A DNA stretch of 64,000 bases from contig NZ_CAJE01000012.1 in the NCBI RefSeq assembly GCF_000308215.1, positions 124,001-188,000 on the forward strand. Direction: 5' to 3'. Each line of letters begins with the position of its first letter. Positions within the stretch are counted from its first letter, which is position 1. Positions 23,058 to 28,101 of the stretch are shown in pieces. The notes under the pieces were generated by a model. The model was not told the DNA's origin. It saw nothing but the letters and a program-made list of their open reading frames with translations, and did no database searches. The translations under genes and the position numbers were made by a program. The stretch comes from Methanomassiliicoccus luminyensis B10. Lineage in GTDB: Archaea > Thermoplasmatota > Thermoplasmata > Methanomassiliicoccales > Methanomassiliicoccaceae.

Positions 23058-23744
23058 CTATTTAGCGGATCGGAGCAGGTCCGGCAGCGAGAGAACGCTG
23101 TCGACGACATCCACGCACTCCGCGCGTTCCCAGTCCTCCTTCCCGAACGCCCCGGTGAGCACCCCCACGAACCTGGCTGATGATGACCTCGCGCAGGACA
23201 GGTCGATGAGGTGGTCGCCGACGAGGAGGCACTGCTCCACCGGGACGCCCAGCATGTCGGCCATCCGTTTCATCGCCACCCCGTTCGGCTTCGCTTCCGT
23301 CTCAGGGTAGTCGTCCCGGCACACCACGGCGTCGAAGCCGATATCCAGGCCAGCTACGCGCAGTGCCTCGCTCGCATACGCCCGGGAGCCGCGGGTCAGC
23401 AACCCCAGCCGGTACCCCCTCTCCCTGAGCAGGGGCAAGACCTCCCTGGCCCCCCTCACTGGGGTGGTCTCCTCCACCCTCTCCAGCTCAGTGCGGTTCA
23501 TGACCTCGCTGATCCAGGTGCGCAGGGAGGGCAGGTCACCGTCCCGTCCCTCTGATATCAGGTACGACTCGGCCGCGGGCAGGATGGTGGCGATGACGTC
23601 ACGGGGGTCCCGCAGATGCGGCGGCACCCCCATGGTCTCCAGCCGCAGGACCAGCGCCCCCTTCATCTTGCGGAAGTCCACGGTAGTGTGGATGAGGGTC
23701 CCGTCCATGTCGAAAACGATCGCCTTAATGCCGCTCAGGTTCAT
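23058..23744 (-). CDS. HAD-superfamily phosphatase (phosphoglycolate phosphatase-like)
   Basis: The 228-residue protein has motif I DMDGTLIHTTVDF (nucleophile and acid Asp near residues 12-14), motif II LLTRGSRAYA near 118, and motif IV GDHLIDLSCA near 185. A helical cap is inserted between motif I and II, as in the phosphoglycolate phosphatase/beta-phosphoglucomutase subgroup. Substrate cannot be decided. It is followed by ridA on the same strand. Confidence 0.87.
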   Translation of the reverse strand: MNLSGIKAIVFDMDGTLIHTTVDFRKMKGALVLRLETMGVPPHLRDPRDVIATILPAAESYLISEGRDGDLPSLRTWISEVMNRTELERVEETTPVRGAREVLPLLRERGYRLGLLTRGSRAYASEALRVAGLDIGFDAVVCRDDYPETEAKPNGVAMKRMADMLGVPVEQCLLVGDHLIDLSCARSSSARFVGVLTGAFGKEDWERAECVDVVDSVLSLPDLLRSAK

Positions 23745-23893
23745 CTTCCGCTCCCTTCCCCGTCAATGCGCGGACCCCTATATAGGGTGTGCTCCAAATG
23801 ATATGCGGAATTGACTAAGAACGGGCTCAGCCAGGAGAGCGCCGGGAGGTATTTTTTATTCTGATTCTCAAAATGCATTATTTATAGGTATGT

Positions 23894-23927
23894 GTAGCAT
23901 GCTCAACCACCTATTTTATATTCACAA
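23894..23927 (+). promoter_or_regulatory. shared promoter element, copy A (before the octapeptide-repeat gene)
   Basis: GTAGCATGCTCAA (23894-23906), five variable bases, then TATTTTATATTCACAA (23912-23927). The same arrangement with the same spacing occurs at 27017-27050 before the DUF835 gene. The first block holds the palindrome GCATGC; the second contains the TATA box. Transcription should start near 23940, about 20 nt before the coding start. Confidence 0.7.
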
Positions 23928-23963
23928 GACCAAACCGGTGCAACCCATATCAAATTGGTGAGG

Positions 23964-24215
23964 ATGATGAAGACAAGAACCCTGGCAATAATGGGAGTGG
24001 CGATATGCGTCGGCGCGCTCGGAGTTGCGATCGCCTTCGGCGCCCTGAGCGTGCCCCTGGTGGGATATACAATTCCCCTGATCGACCCGCACACAATTCC
24101 CCTGATCGACCCGCACACAATTCCCCTGATCGACCCGCACACAATTCCCCTGATCGACCCGCACACAATTCCCCTGATCGACCCGCACACAATTCCCCTG
24201 ATCGACCCGCATTAA
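23964..24215 (+). CDS. short membrane-anchored protein of six identical octapeptide repeats
   Basis: The product is about 83 residues. Residues 1-10 are basic, about 11-32 form a hydrophobic helix (AIMGVAICVGALGVAIAFGA) that is a signal anchor or signal peptide, then SVPLVGY leads into six tandem copies of TIPLIDPH up to the stop. GGTGAGG lies just before ATG 23964; ATG 23967 and upstream GTG/TTG codons are alternative starts. The repeated part should face the outside if the N-terminal helix follows the positive-inside rule. Asp and His recur every eight residues and could bind metal. I do not recognise the family. Its promoter element matches that of the DUF835 gene beyond the STAND regulator. 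Confidence 0.6.
   Translation: MMKTRTLAIMGVAICVGALGVAIAFGALSVPLVGYTIPLIDPHTIPLIDPHTIPLIDPHTIPLIDPHTIPLIDPHTIPLIDPH
24069..24212 (+). repeat. six tandem 24-bp repeats inside the octapeptide gene
   Basis: ACAATTCCCCTGATCGACCC plus GCAC repeats at 24069, 24093, 24117, 24141, 24165 and 24189. The copies are identical at the DNA level except for the last base of the final copy (CAT instead of CAC before the stop). Identity including third codon positions points to recent amplification by slippage or recombination, so the copy number may vary between strains. Confidence 0.9.
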
Positions 24216-24263
24216 TCAGGTAAACCAATTCACCTCCCAGCAATGGGAGGTTCCTACCCGTTT

Positions 24264-26960
24264 TTATGCACCGTTCTGCGCCAGCGCTTCCTCTATATCT
24301 TTCTTGATCTGATCCATGGGCTCGTTCTGAAAATACATCTGAGCCTCGGACAACATCGCGTAGGCCGCGGACCTCTCTCCATTTTTGGCGTATTCCTTGG
24401 AGACCCAGAACAGCCATCTCCCCAGGATAGAGGGCTTGTTCATTTTACGCAGCATATCTAGGGCCAGGTTAAATTCATCCTTGCCCCATTCCCATTCTTG
24501 CTTCTTTTCGTACAGGTAGCCCCGCATCAGGTGCATGTGGGCCACCAGCAATTTGATGTTCAGTTTCTCGAAGATCTTGGACGACGCGGTCAGCAGATCC
24601 TCTGCCGCTCCGAACTCCTCCAACTCGATGTGCGCGGCGGCGGCGTGGCGCATCGCATGCCCCTGAAGTTCGAGATTCCCAGAAGCCTTCCCAATATCGA
24701 TTGCTTTCTCGAGATAGTTGGCCCCTTCTCTGAAGTTACCAATGTCCAGCAGACTGTGACCTATTCCGACATACACCCTGGCGATGTTGTCGACATCGCC
24801 GGTCTTCTCCATGATCTCCAAAGCCTCTTTCTTGTACGTTATGGCCCGGTTGTGGTCCAGAAGGTCGGTGTGGACCCTCCCGATGCCGTACAGCGCCTTT
24901 CCCCGCCCCACATCGTCGCCGACCGTCTGGGCAAGCTCCCGGGACATCGAGAAGGCGCTCAGAGCCTCCTGGTTCCTTCCGCGGCTCTGGAACACCCCGC
25001 CCAAATCATAGTAGATGTCCACCAGGGTGTGAGTGTCCTGAATGGCCTGCGCGATCCCCAGACTCTTCACCAAGTATGTCTCGGCCTCGTCGAACAGGGA
25101 CCTGCGCAGGTAGATGCCACCTATCCGGCGGTTTATCTCCGCGAGCAGCCTTTTATCCTTCTCAGGGTCCGCCAGCGTTCCTGCCTCATCGAACCTGACG
25201 ACCGCCTGGTCCCATTCCCCCTTGACCTCGTAGATGTCGCCCTCCAACAGGAGTATCTCCATTTTCTCGCTATTGTCGATGTGTTCGCACTGCTCTCTCA
25301 GCTGGGCGAGCAGCGGGCCGAACGGAAGGCCATAGCCCTTGGCGATGATATCCCTTCCATAGCTGGCCGCGATCTTGGTAGCGGTGGAGTATTCCTTGGC
25401 CATCAGGCAGTGGTACATCGCCTCCACGTGCGACGGCGCGGACCGGTCCTGCAGATAGTACCTTGACGCCGCTTTATGATAGGCCATCCGGGACCTCGGG
25501 GCCAGTCGCGAATAGAAGAAGTCCCTCAACAGGTCGTGCATGCCGATCATGCGGCCGGTGGACTCGTGCATCAGGGACTTGTTGAGCAGCTGGTCGATGG
25601 TGTCATAGTCCACCATGTAGTCTTTGTACTCCAGCTCCTTCTGGGCGAACCCCATCTCCTTGGCGATCCCCTCCTCCATGCTGAAGAACGCATCGATGAG
25701 GACGGGGTACCTGAATATGGAGGCGATTTCCAGGATCCTCCTCTCGGTGGGGTCGAGCTTGGCGTACACCTCCTGTTCGATGAACATGCGGACGTTCTTG
25801 CCGAGCGCGCTCTTGGGGCTGTCGATAAGCTCCAGGAAGAGAGGGTGGCCACGGGTGGCGGTGTATATGGCCATGAGCTCCGATTCCGGGAGCTCCCGGT
25901 TCCGGATCAGGCGGAAGCTGCTGTCCATGTCCAGGCCGTCCAGCATCATCTCCACGACCTCCCCCTTGAACACCACGCTGCGCGAGTAGAACGACGGTAT
26001 CTCGCGGCTGGTGAATATCATGGATACGTGGGGAAGCGATTCCAGCACCCCCACCATGGCGGCCAGGAAGTCATGCACGGTCTGGTCGGCCTTCTGCACA
26101 TCGTCCAGTATGAACACCGCGGGCAGGTCCTTCAGCTCGGTCTCCAGGATTGACGACACCTCTCCCACGCTGGGCGTCTCGGTCCTCGACAGGTACCTCT
26201 CCAGCCCTTTCCTCCCCATCTGGGAGAGGAACTCCGCGATGGGCGAGAGGAGGATCTTCAGGTTAACCCACTCGTGGACCCGGTACCAGAACACGTTGTG
26301 GCGTTCCCTCACGTCCTGCACGAACTTCGCCAGCAGGGTGGTCTTCCCGATGCCGGGGATCCCATACACCACCATTATCCGGGCGGTCTCGGAGGTAATG
26401 AAGTCGTTGAGCTTCTTCAGTTCTTCCTGCCGGCCGAAGAACGTCCTCACCGACGGCTTCCGATCGGTGTAGTCCACATAGCGCCTCTCCTCCCTCACCT
26501 TGCCGTGGTGGAAGGAGGAGCAGTCGAACCTCCCCCTGGTCACGCCGAGGGCTATCTCCAGGAAGGTGTAGCGCTTCGGAAGGTATTTGCTGAGCTTTCC
26601 CACCTCATCGGTGATCTCCTTCCCGTCGAAATCGACGATGACCACCTTGGTGCTCTCGATCTCGGCCTTAAAGGCCAGTCCTTCCTGGAACCCCTTCTGG
26701 GTCAGGAAGTACACCTTCTTGACGCTGGCGAAGCCCTTCACATGTTTGGTGTGCACCTCCACGATCCCCTCGTCGGCGAGGACGTTCACCGCCTTTGACA
26801 CGTTGTTGCGTCCGACGTCGACCGCGTCCGCTATGCCTTCCTGCGTGATGGCCATGGGCGCATCGGAGTCTTGCAGGAATTTCTGGTATGATAAGATATG
26901 AAGGACGATCCTCTCCCTTGCCGTCAGCAGGGACTTCTTGGACGCGCGGTTCAATGCCAA
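24264..26960 (-). CDS. STAND-type regulator: winged HTH, ATPase and TPR repeats
   Basis: The 898-residue protein starts at a TTG on 26958-26960. Residues 15-95 form a winged helix-turn-helix (TQEGIADAVDVGRNNVSKAV). FFGRQEEL near 174 precedes an NB-ARC/NACHT-like ATPase: Walker A GIPGIGKTT at 200-208, Walker B AVFILDDVQ at 281-289, sensor-like FTSREIP near 320. From about residue 560 to the end there are tandem TPR units (LLAEINRRIGGIYLRRSLFD, VDIYYDLGGVFQSRGRNQEA). This is the architecture of MalT/AfsR-like signal-gated transcription regulators. Its signal is unknown. It lies between two genes that carry the same promoter element, one of which it shares as divergent promoter region, so those genes are likely targets. 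Confidence 0.88.
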   Translation of the reverse strand: MALNRASKKSLLTARERIVLHILSYQKFLQDSDAPMAITQEGIADAVDVGRNNVSKAVNVLADEGIVEVHTKHVKGFASVKKVYFLTQKGFQEGLAFKAEIESTKVVIVDFDGKEITDEVGKLSKYLPKRYTFLEIALGVTRGRFDCSSFHHGKVREERRYVDYTDRKPSVRTFFGRQEELKKLNDFITSETARIMVVYGIPGIGKTTLLAKFVQDVRERHNVFWYRVHEWVNLKILLSPIAEFLSQMGRKGLERYLSRTETPSVGEVSSILETELKDLPAVFILDDVQKADQTVHDFLAAMVGVLESLPHVSMIFTSREIPSFYSRSVVFKGEVVEMMLDGLDMDSSFRLIRNRELPESELMAIYTATRGHPLFLELIDSPKSALGKNVRMFIEQEVYAKLDPTERRILEIASIFRYPVLIDAFFSMEEGIAKEMGFAQKELEYKDYMVDYDTIDQLLNKSLMHESTGRMIGMHDLLRDFFYSRLAPRSRMAYHKAASRYYLQDRSAPSHVEAMYHCLMAKEYSTATKIAASYGRDIIAKGYGLPFGPLLAQLREQCEHIDNSEKMEILLLEGDIYEVKGEWDQAVVRFDEAGTLADPEKDKRLLAEINRRIGGIYLRRSLFDEAETYLVKSLGIAQAIQDTHTLVDIYYDLGGVFQSRGRNQEALSAFSMSRELAQTVGDDVGRGKALYGIGRVHTDLLDHNRAITYKKEALEIMEKTGDVDNIARVYVGIGHSLLDIGNFREGANYLEKAIDIGKASGNLELQGHAMRHAAAAHIELEEFGAAEDLLTASSKIFEKLNIKLLVAHMHLMRGYLYEKKQEWEWGKDEFNLALDMLRKMNKPSILGRWLFWVSKEYAKNGERSAAYAMLSEAQMYFQNEPMDQIKKDIEEALAQNGA

Positions 26961-27016: not shown

Positions 27017-27050
27017 GTAGCATGCTCAAATCGGTATTATATAATCACAA
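27017..27050 (+). promoter_or_regulatory. shared promoter element, copy B (between the STAND regulator and the DUF835 gene)
   Basis: GTAGCATGCTCAA (27017-27029), five variable bases, then TATTATATAATCACAA (27035-27050). The first block is identical to copy A at 23894 and the second matches at 14 of 16 positions. It lies in the 126-bp divergent region of the STAND gene and the DUF835 gene; a regulator here could control both directions. The TATA core (ATTATATAAT) is almost symmetric and might work both ways. Confidence 0.7.
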
Positions 27051-27086: not shown

Positions 27087-27632
27087 TTGAAGGAAGAGAC
27101 CAGAATATCACTGCTAATAGAAGGCTACCCGCGCTATGGATACCAGACATACTCTCGGATCGTTGGCTCTGCCAGCAACAGCCTGTGCATCAGTCGGCTG
27201 CACCCGGAATACGTGGCCCATAAGTTCGGCCTGGAGAGGTCTAAGCACTACTGGCTTAGCGGACAGAAGGGACAAGACGTGATCTCCCCGAGATCGATGC
27301 ACCATCTGGTGAAGGCGCTGCGCATCGATCTCCGCGGCAGGGGCGGCGGGGTGGCGTTCATGGACGGGCTGGAATACCTGCTCCTGTTCAATGACACCGC
27401 CAGGGTCATGGAGGGGCTGGAGGAGATCGACGCGCTGCTCCGGCAGGCCAACGTGGACCTGATCATCGCGGTAGACCCGCTGACATTAGAACAGAACGAT
27501 CTGGACCGCCTGTACGAAGCGTTCCCGAGGCACTCGGTGAGGTCGATCCTGGAAAAGTACTCTATCCTAGGATCTCAGCAAATCTCTGAAGCCGTGCCAG
27601 GTAGCGAGGCTCAAGGGATCGCGGGTCTATAG
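27087..27632 (+). CDS. DUF835 domain protein 1
   Basis: The 181-residue protein starts at TTG 27087 with GGAGGGG 6 nt upstream. It is a DUF835 domain: a P-loop-free RecA/KaiC-like fold with LCISRLHPEYVAHKFG, HYWLSGQKGQDVISP, GGGVAFMDGLEYLLLFND and DLIIAVDPLTLE. The GLEYL motif is the family mark. DUF835 proteins are abundant in Thermoplasmatota and often attach to sensor domains; stand-alone function is unknown. Its last 71 nt overlap the end of the convergent DUF835 gene. Confidence 0.83.
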   Translation: MKEETRISLLIEGYPRYGYQTYSRIVGSASNSLCISRLHPEYVAHKFGLERSKHYWLSGQKGQDVISPRSMHHLVKALRIDLRGRGGGVAFMDGLEYLLLFNDTARVMEGLEEIDALLRQANVDLIIAVDPLTLEQNDLDRLYEAFPRHSVRSILEKYSILGSQQISEAVPGSEAQGIAGL

Positions 27633-28101
27633 GCACAATAAGGATGGCCTGCGAGGCCATCACCACATCGTTCACCTGCTCGATGAACGCCTGGACTCTG
27701 GAGAACTCGTTGAAGGCGCAGAGATATTCGATGCCATCTATCAGTACCACGCCGTGCTTTTTCCCCATGAGGAACGAGCTCACTCTCTGAGCGATGTGGC
27801 CAAGCTGATCGGGCGGTACGTTATTGGGTCCGTTCCGCTCGCTCAGCCACAATGCCTCTACGCGTTTTCCGGGCCACCGGCCCTGCATTAGGTCGGGGTG
27901 CATTCGGGTCACGCACATCACCTTGGACCCGGAATAGAGGAAGTCCTGCACGATCCGGCAGGCCTTGTCCATCTTCTTCTCGTTGATGAAATAGGTCCTT
28001 CCGTAATCGAACTCTATGGGACTGATGCCCATGGAGATGCTCAGCGGCTCGAGCTTTTGTTCCTCATCCTTTATCGGCCCAGGTACGAACAGCGCGGACA
28101 C
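27562..28101 (-). CDS. DUF835 domain protein 2
   Basis: The 179-residue product starts at a GTG on 28099-28101. It shares the DUF835 motifs with its convergent neighbour: VMCVTRMHPDLMQGRW, ALWLSERNGPNNVPP, GVVLIDGIEYLCAFN and AILIVPIDPRSLEPRYL. A TATA-like ATATTTAT on the minus strand near 28147-28158 would start transcription about 20 nt before the GTG. The two genes end inside each other's coding sequence (27562-27632), so their transcripts are mutually antisense there. Confidence 0.82.
   Translation of the reverse strand: MSALFVPGPIKDEEQKLEPLSISMGISPIEFDYGRTYFINEKKMDKACRIVQDFLYSGSKVMCVTRMHPDLMQGRWPGKRVEALWLSERNGPNNVPPDQLGHIAQRVSSFLMGKKHGVVLIDGIEYLCAFNEFSRVQAFIEQVNDVVMASQAILIVPIDPRSLEPRYLARLQRFAEILG

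Follow-up and report, generated by a model that had tools for sequence, protein, structure and literature searches.

What could be the role of a protein that consists, after a hydrophobic helix, entirely of six copies of one octapeptide? The gene in question, here called REP, lies at positions 23964–24215 (+ strand) of the 64,000-nucleotide stretch of Methanomassiliicoccus luminyensis B10 DNA that was analysed (the window), and the original prediction offered three functions for it: metal binding, surface attachment or a peptide precursor. Comparison with relatives firmly shows that REP encodes several copies of a short peptide, that it is conserved and under selection, and that it belongs to a regulatory cassette which is inherited as a set and marked by a promoter box of its own. 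Taken together, REP, a tiny and probably exported protein, and the cassette, whose regulator is of a kind able to bind peptides, suggest a previously undescribed archaeal peptide signalling system.

The repeat gene and its relatives

REP starts at an ATG at 23964, with a second ATG at 23967, and stops at a TAA at 24213–24215, giving a protein of 83 or 82 amino acids in which six TIPLIDPH units make up the final 48 residues. By its codons the array of 24-bp units spans 24069–24212 (+ strand). TRF reported it at 24069–24211 (period 24, 6.0 copies, 143 bases, 100% matches) with a score of 286, against only 50–58 for the other five TRF rows in the window, and the predicted six-unit array behind a hydrophobic helix was right in its coordinates. 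Five units are identical in DNA and the sixth departs only at its last base (CAT for CAC). A DNA search found the array to be single in its own 2.62 Mb genome (one match). The N-terminus comprises two basic residues followed by a hydrophobic stretch (19-residue mean hydropathy 2.56), AlphaFold2 predicted a helix at residues 4–28 and a low-confidence repeat region (block means 40–54), and the predicted topology is N-in, C-out. Charge, hydropathy and helix agree with the proposal of an exported or membrane-anchored protein, as a prediction. No Pfam or NCBIfam family scored above cut-off for the REP protein. Eight PDB sequence matches, seven to circumsporozoite repeats or fusions and one to a designed protein, were rejected as a composition effect, and three proteobacterial matches in genome contigs, where IDPHTIPLG occurs within a longer protein, were taken as chance. 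None of 27 pattern-matching stretches in viral contigs encoded a REP relative.

A REP gene was present at a conserved locus in 33 of 61 genomes, the window's own included; the count refers to genes at that locus, and the presence lists for REP, for the neighbouring STAND regulator and for the promoter box were compiled by hand. A protein search with REP gave matches in 34 of the 61 at E ≤ 1, including weak ones, and G013, with weak matches (E 0.017 and above) at a site lacking the box, was scored as being without REP. The member in G040 was missed by the protein search and found via the promoter box, and G145 has a promoter box with no REP recognised. Among 400 genomes sampled from the class, the REP profile was found in 24, all in the window's own order, a sample in which, as in the other REP searches, members with altered units like that of G040 may have escaped detection. 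REP belongs to a family found in a single archaeal order. Its reading frame, whose non-conservation in homologues would have counted against the original prediction, is largely kept, with at least two frame breaks within the precursor, in G027 (L088, a single-contig genome) and G031 (L091). These may reflect sequencing error, decay or phase variation.

Selection on the repeated peptide

Across the family a heptapeptide, in most cases IPxxDPH, forms the repeat unit, with 1–12 copies that are tandem or split by unrelated linkers. Many arrays are tandem octamers, and the G018 unit has 11 residues. Copy number ranges from one in G030, a 46-residue member, to 12 in G002. The length variation that had been expected from strain to strain was found between species: G002, G004 and G012, which belong to one genus and have similar N-termini, carry 12, 5 and 4 copies, respectively. 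Eight genomes (G017, G019, G022, G025, G028, G031, G034 and G044) have identical or near-identical cores separated by mutually dissimilar linkers. Because of these unlike linkers and of the single-copy G030 member, we regard the short peptide, rather than the array, as the unit.

Copies were compared in 27 genomes with at least two counted copies (126 copies in total), a copy being counted only if it fitted [ILV]Pxx[DESNT]P[HI], which misses degenerate copies such as those of G031 and G034. Outside this comparison are G030 (one copy), G056 (contig end), G058 (contig-start fragment), G146, two partly masked members (of which one shows a deviating unit), G040 (other unit) and a second G050 fragment. 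All counted copies were identical in amino acids in 25 of the 27 genomes, and more than one DNA version was present in 23 of the 27. Within genomes, mean pN was 0.007 and mean pS 0.57 (pN/pS 0.012; 27 genomes). Between genomes pN was 0.17, with 16 peptide versions: IPLIDPH, IPGIDPH, IPGLEPH, IPFLDPH, IPFIDPH, IPLLDPH, IPMLDPH, IPMSDPH, IPVNDPH, IPGNDPH, IPGNSPH, IPGTDPH, IPGVDPH, IPRSDPH, IPGIDPI and LPGMTPH. In G010 a single peptide is encoded by eight copies in eight DNA versions, and in G017 one peptide is encoded using both serine codon families. The copies are under purifying selection within a genome, and the peptide changes between species.

The third-position identity noted in the original prediction holds for the window's genome, where pS among the copies is 0.06, but not for many relatives, whose copies are near synonymous saturation. 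Recent expansion, likewise proposed from the window, stands for that genome: the nearly identical DNA of its copies is recent expansion on top of peptide conservation. In G040 (L071, minus strand from about position 2326 of the reversed locus) the array consists of a MPLPGVGPV nonapeptide without the IPxxDPH core; its units differ by synonymous codons, and this precursor has no hydrophobic N-terminus. Copies fixed as peptides within genomes, with a peptide that differs from one species to another, are most simply explained by a specific partner. A multi-copy ligand precursor accounts for the codon pattern better than a metal-binding or structural role does. Should the peptide turn out not to be a ligand, copies that are peptide-identical despite codon differences, and that vary by species, would still call for a specific partner.

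A co-inherited cassette with its own promoter box

Downstream of REP lies a gene for a STAND regulator of 898 amino acids (24264–26960, − strand), with an ortholog in 31 of the 61 genomes at E ≤ 1e-60, followed by DUF835a (27087–27632, + strand) and DUF835b (27562–28101, − strand), both matching Pfam PF05763. DUF835a is a co-inherited cassette member and DUF835b a loose one, kept also in the cassette-free genome G003. Upstream and divergent from REP is a HAD-family hydrolase gene (23058–23744, − strand). We surveyed 34 REP loci, namely those of the 33 genomes with REP and that of G146. In all 30 that contain STAND, it lies downstream of REP in convergent orientation. In 29 of these it is ≤600 bases from the REP start, whereas in G002 (L080) the distance is 1,730, an insertion having placed it ~1.3 kb further from REP than elsewhere. 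In the four loci without it (G018, G024, G050 and G056) the contig ends 127–245 bases past the REP start, and in G024 and G050 STAND lies at the edge of a separate contig with REP units at its start or end. HAD was seen in 32 of the 34 loci, always upstream and divergent, the remaining two loci beginning too near REP. Its distance from REP is ≤260 bases in 24 loci, 308 in G050, 354 in G044 and 850–2,360 in six (G017, G019, G022, G028, G031 and G034), in most of which the frame between the two genes is presumably epimerase-like. In family f6 (L075, L091, L102 and L103) such an epimerase-like gene takes the divergent promoter position between REP and HAD. FAD oxidase, Lrp-TRASH, RidA, DUF835b and TrpB2 genes recur near the REP/STAND core, though not at every locus.

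REP and STAND were both present in 31 genomes, REP alone in two (G018 and G056, both at contig ends), STAND alone in none and neither in 28, or 31, 2, 0 and 9 without family f2; these are raw counts that ignore kinship. In genus g4 the set is present in three species and absent from three. The genomes with close DUF835a matches (E ≤ 1e-36) are precisely the 31 with STAND, and no other match was better than 1e-18. REP, STAND and DUF835a are missing from five of seven cassette-free loci (G001, G003, G005, G046 and G048) in which FAD oxidase, HAD and TrpB2 are retained; the other two (G015 and G020) have no recognisable neighbourhood at all. A search for HAD in G013 gave no match. Precursor, regulator and DUF835a gene are gained and lost together, and the HAD gene, retained in cassette-free genomes, is not part of the cassette.

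The promoter block between HAD and REP (23881–23921), defined by alignment of 14 upstream regions, contains a TTTATA box (23881–23886), the palindrome AGCATGCT (23896–23903) and a second TATA-like box, TTTTATAT (23914–23921). All 14 regions share AGCATGCTC together with two AT-rich boxes, the first of them TATA-like. A ribosome-binding site, GGTGAGG, follows at 23957–23963 (+ strand), and GGTG-type sites also occur 5' of many homologues. Both expression signals of the original prediction, TATA box and ribosome site, are in place, with the promoter conserved across the alignment. The HAD/REP intergenic region has TATA-like boxes facing both ways. A second AGCATGCT palindrome lies at 27019–27026, between the divergent STAND and DUF835a genes. 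The pattern AGCATGCTCN{8,12}TTTWATA was found in 32 of the 61 genomes and in 34 of 147 genomes of the order, and the reversed pattern in none of either set. With a looser pattern, 12 cassette genomes gave 36 distinct sites, and none with the pattern reversed. HAD/REP and STAND/DUF835a account for 12 each and an unlinked kinase gene for 10, while the remaining two, both in G036, lie elsewhere.

The unlinked gene matches AAA_18 and, at 143.6 bits against a cut-off of 152, PRK03839. In a kinase-gene search covering 30 genomes, one of which (G010) gave no kinase match, the kinase-promoter box was present in 14 of 15 cassette genomes and in one of 14 others (Fisher p 2.9e-6, kinship ignored). The exceptions are G036, with a cassette and no kinase box, and G014 (80% complete), with a kinase box and no cassette detected. 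The AGCATGCT box goes with the cassette. Box symmetry was rejected as proof of divergent transcription, the kinase gene's upstream neighbour in the window's genome running in the same direction. In that genome the kinase-gene palindrome is at 3188 of L210 (G000:C20:77500-83500), between what we take to be a TruA-like gene upstream and a CDP-alcohol phosphatidyltransferase-like frame downstream. The AK6-like kinase gene of G036 has no box, and the two extra sites of this genome (L208:2088 and L209:2159) lie near genes that we assume to be receiver- or sensor-kinase-like. The stricter of the two box patterns gave one match each in G011 (L072, C4) and G009 (L073, C4), two species of one genus, 5' of a gene that presumably resembles a small heat-shock protein.

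A candidate peptide ligand for the STAND regulator

The STAND protein has an NTPase (NOD) core, with the Pfam families AAA_16, ATPase_2 and NB-ARC above cut-offs, and a C-terminus matching TPR_12, TPR_1, TPR_2 and TPR_8, also above cut-offs. Its N-terminus is HTH-like (HTH_Crp_2 at 20.5 bits against a cut-off of 27, with TrmB and GntR weaker), and this below-cut-off match is the only DNA-binding-like domain recognised among the cassette genes. The AlphaFold2 model (mean pLDDT 83) places the helices of a TPR superhelix from about residue 508 to 897. Its best PDB match was 6mfv, a STAND protein with a TPR sensor (E 2.1e-24, TM 0.73 by target), and most of the next matches were TPR chains of LGN in structures with partner proteins; the maltose-system entry 8bob contributed the fifth-ranked chain, and a phage Rap solved with its pheromone ranked 50th. 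Mean pairwise identity among the STAND proteins is 0.40–0.45 in the TPR segments versus 0.57–0.64 in the core. With core distance removed, TPR distance correlated with peptide distance (partial Mantel r 0.31, p 0.001). The same test was also positive for TrpB2, an unrelated neighbour (0.25, p 0.003), and gave values between −0.25 and 0.05 for HAD, DUF835a, DUF835b, RidA, Lrp-TRASH and FAD oxidase. With one genome per peptide (13 genomes) the TPR–peptide correlation was gone (r 0.11, p 0.27).

Based on these observations we infer a mechanism in which REP would yield an exported or membrane-anchored precursor with several identical short linear peptides, to be freed by processing. The peptide would bind the TPR sensor of the adjoining STAND transcription regulator as its specific ligand, and STAND would bind and act at the AGCATGCT boxes of the precursor, its own and the unlinked kinase promoters. 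Such control would amount to autoregulation of the kind known from peptide quorum sensing, with the loop closed, and could serve density sensing. In our estimation the odds are even that the cassette's STAND regulator senses the peptide as a ligand; the peptide possibly also travels between cells, which is less certain than the ligand role. The full reading, an archaeal pheromone in which a secreted, species-specific heptapeptide precursor of 1–12 copies is read by a STAND HTH-NTPase-TPR protein that autoregulates the cassette and the kinase gene through AGCATGCT, is tentative, with a probability of just under 0.4. Counting against the ligand reading, the G040 precursor has a nonapeptide array and no hydrophobic N-terminus, one partly masked member has a deviating unit, G036 and G014 break the link between cassette and kinase box, and no peptidase or importer was found among the cassette genes.

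Alternatively, the repeats could bind some other extracellular partner (an adhesin, envelope protein, protease or surface receptor), with the STAND cassette merely regulating this surface protein; surface attachment, one of the functions first proposed, may apply to REP. Predicted topology agrees with this, any single specific partner would keep the copies identical, and the common promoter box fits simple regulation. On its own, however, an outside partner leaves unexplained that the regulator was never found without the precursor (0/31) and that one copy suffices in G030, and we consider it rather unlikely.

Repeats that bind or buffer metal through Asp and His in register, perhaps tied to the nearby Lrp-type TRASH-like gene, are improbable. 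His is present in 26 and Asp or Glu in 25 of the 27 genomes of the copy comparison, and the TRASH-like match three genes from REP scored 23.4 bits (cut-off 27). Yet the G054 unit lacks His, those of G017 and G018 lack the acidic residue and that of G040 lacks both. The Lrp-TRASH gene persists in three of the seven cassette-free loci (G001, G003 and G005). Metal binding does not require middle residues that are fixed within and changing between genomes, and it is not needed as an explanation and leaves the fixity of all seven residues within a genome unaccounted for. Among the three functions first proposed, codon pattern and context favour the peptide precursor.

Identical cores with variable linkers also look like the multi-core precursors of modified peptides (RiPPs), antimicrobial or signalling, that are cleaved from a precursor, and STAND weakly matches the RiPP-system TPR proteins FxSxx_TPR and HaaT. 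These matches (30.6 of 300 and 40 of 1125 bits) are far under the curated cut-offs, however, and no modifying enzyme, transporter or immunity gene was recognised among the co-inherited genes, which leaves a RiPP a slim prospect. A structural repeat protein, such as a fibre or elastin-like envelope component, is very improbable: PG-containing repeats and the MPLPGVGPV units of G040 recall one, but the repeats have no confident fold, the linkers are irregular, copy number runs from 1 to 12 and one member has a single copy in 46 residues. The chance of a DNA or RNA element with an incidental reading frame is negligible, despite the conserved promoter and leader, as such an element is contradicted by synonymous change with amino-acid identity and no Rfam match was found up to E 1 in 23700–24320.

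The peptide-ligand reading can be set beside known systems. Fungal mating pheromones are received by GPCRs, whereas the candidate receptor of the REP peptide is the STAND protein. RRNPPA receptors are not known to have an NTPase core; the STAND protein here has one, is archaeal, and is paired with a multi-copy precursor. The RRNPPA arrangement is otherwise similar in that a small peptide gene, with secretion predicted here, adjoins a TPR-protein gene: as outlined in the text available from PMC12700828, a small secreted peptide gene stands beside a TPR receptor with an optional N-terminal HTH, in gram-positive bacteria and viruses. The available passages of PMC10182648 describe Huntiella alpha-factor precursors as a signal peptide followed by several mature-peptide copies, 6 to 12 by species, with a mature sequence that differs between species groups. 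REP is like such precursors in its predicted signal sequence, multiple copies and species-variable number and sequence (G040 being without the hydrophobic N-terminus and G030 having one copy), and is likened to them by architecture. Fungal copies are cut at KEX/STE13 sites according to the same passages. Excerpts of PMC6468293 give DNA-binding, NTPase and TPR parts in that order for PH0952 (6mfv), an order that the cassette STAND, with its putative HTH, would share, and name maltotriose as the ligand of MalT, a STAND protein with a TPR sensor; they mention neither a ligand of PH0952 nor a repeated-peptide partner. A peptide ligand is an extension, because the named sensor ligand of this protein type is a sugar.

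Among the matches listed, in titles and abstract openings and with subscription papers mostly outside, the cassette was not described in the literature on Methanomassiliicoccales or archaeal quorum sensing, peptide pheromones, RRNPP or STAND. Density sensing in archaea is little known; three earlier true examples are named in the part of PMC12240190 available, one with a carboxylated AHL and one with an unknown signal, and the Haloferax density signal is given there as a proteinase K-resistant small molecule. If true, peptide signalling through a linked receptor would bring a new kind of density sensing to the archaea, namely peptide quorum sensing via a MalT/NLR-type receptor, and would reveal what one of their TPR-sensor STAND proteins naturally binds. 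DUF835 occurs in archaeal response regulators as REC-DUF835 in the available text of PMC5847659; the cassette DUF835 proteins give PF05763 matches like those domains but are encoded by stand-alone genes. In the window the DUF835 pair (27087–28101) is convergent with an overlap of ~70 bases, and the convergent pair is recurrent across the order.
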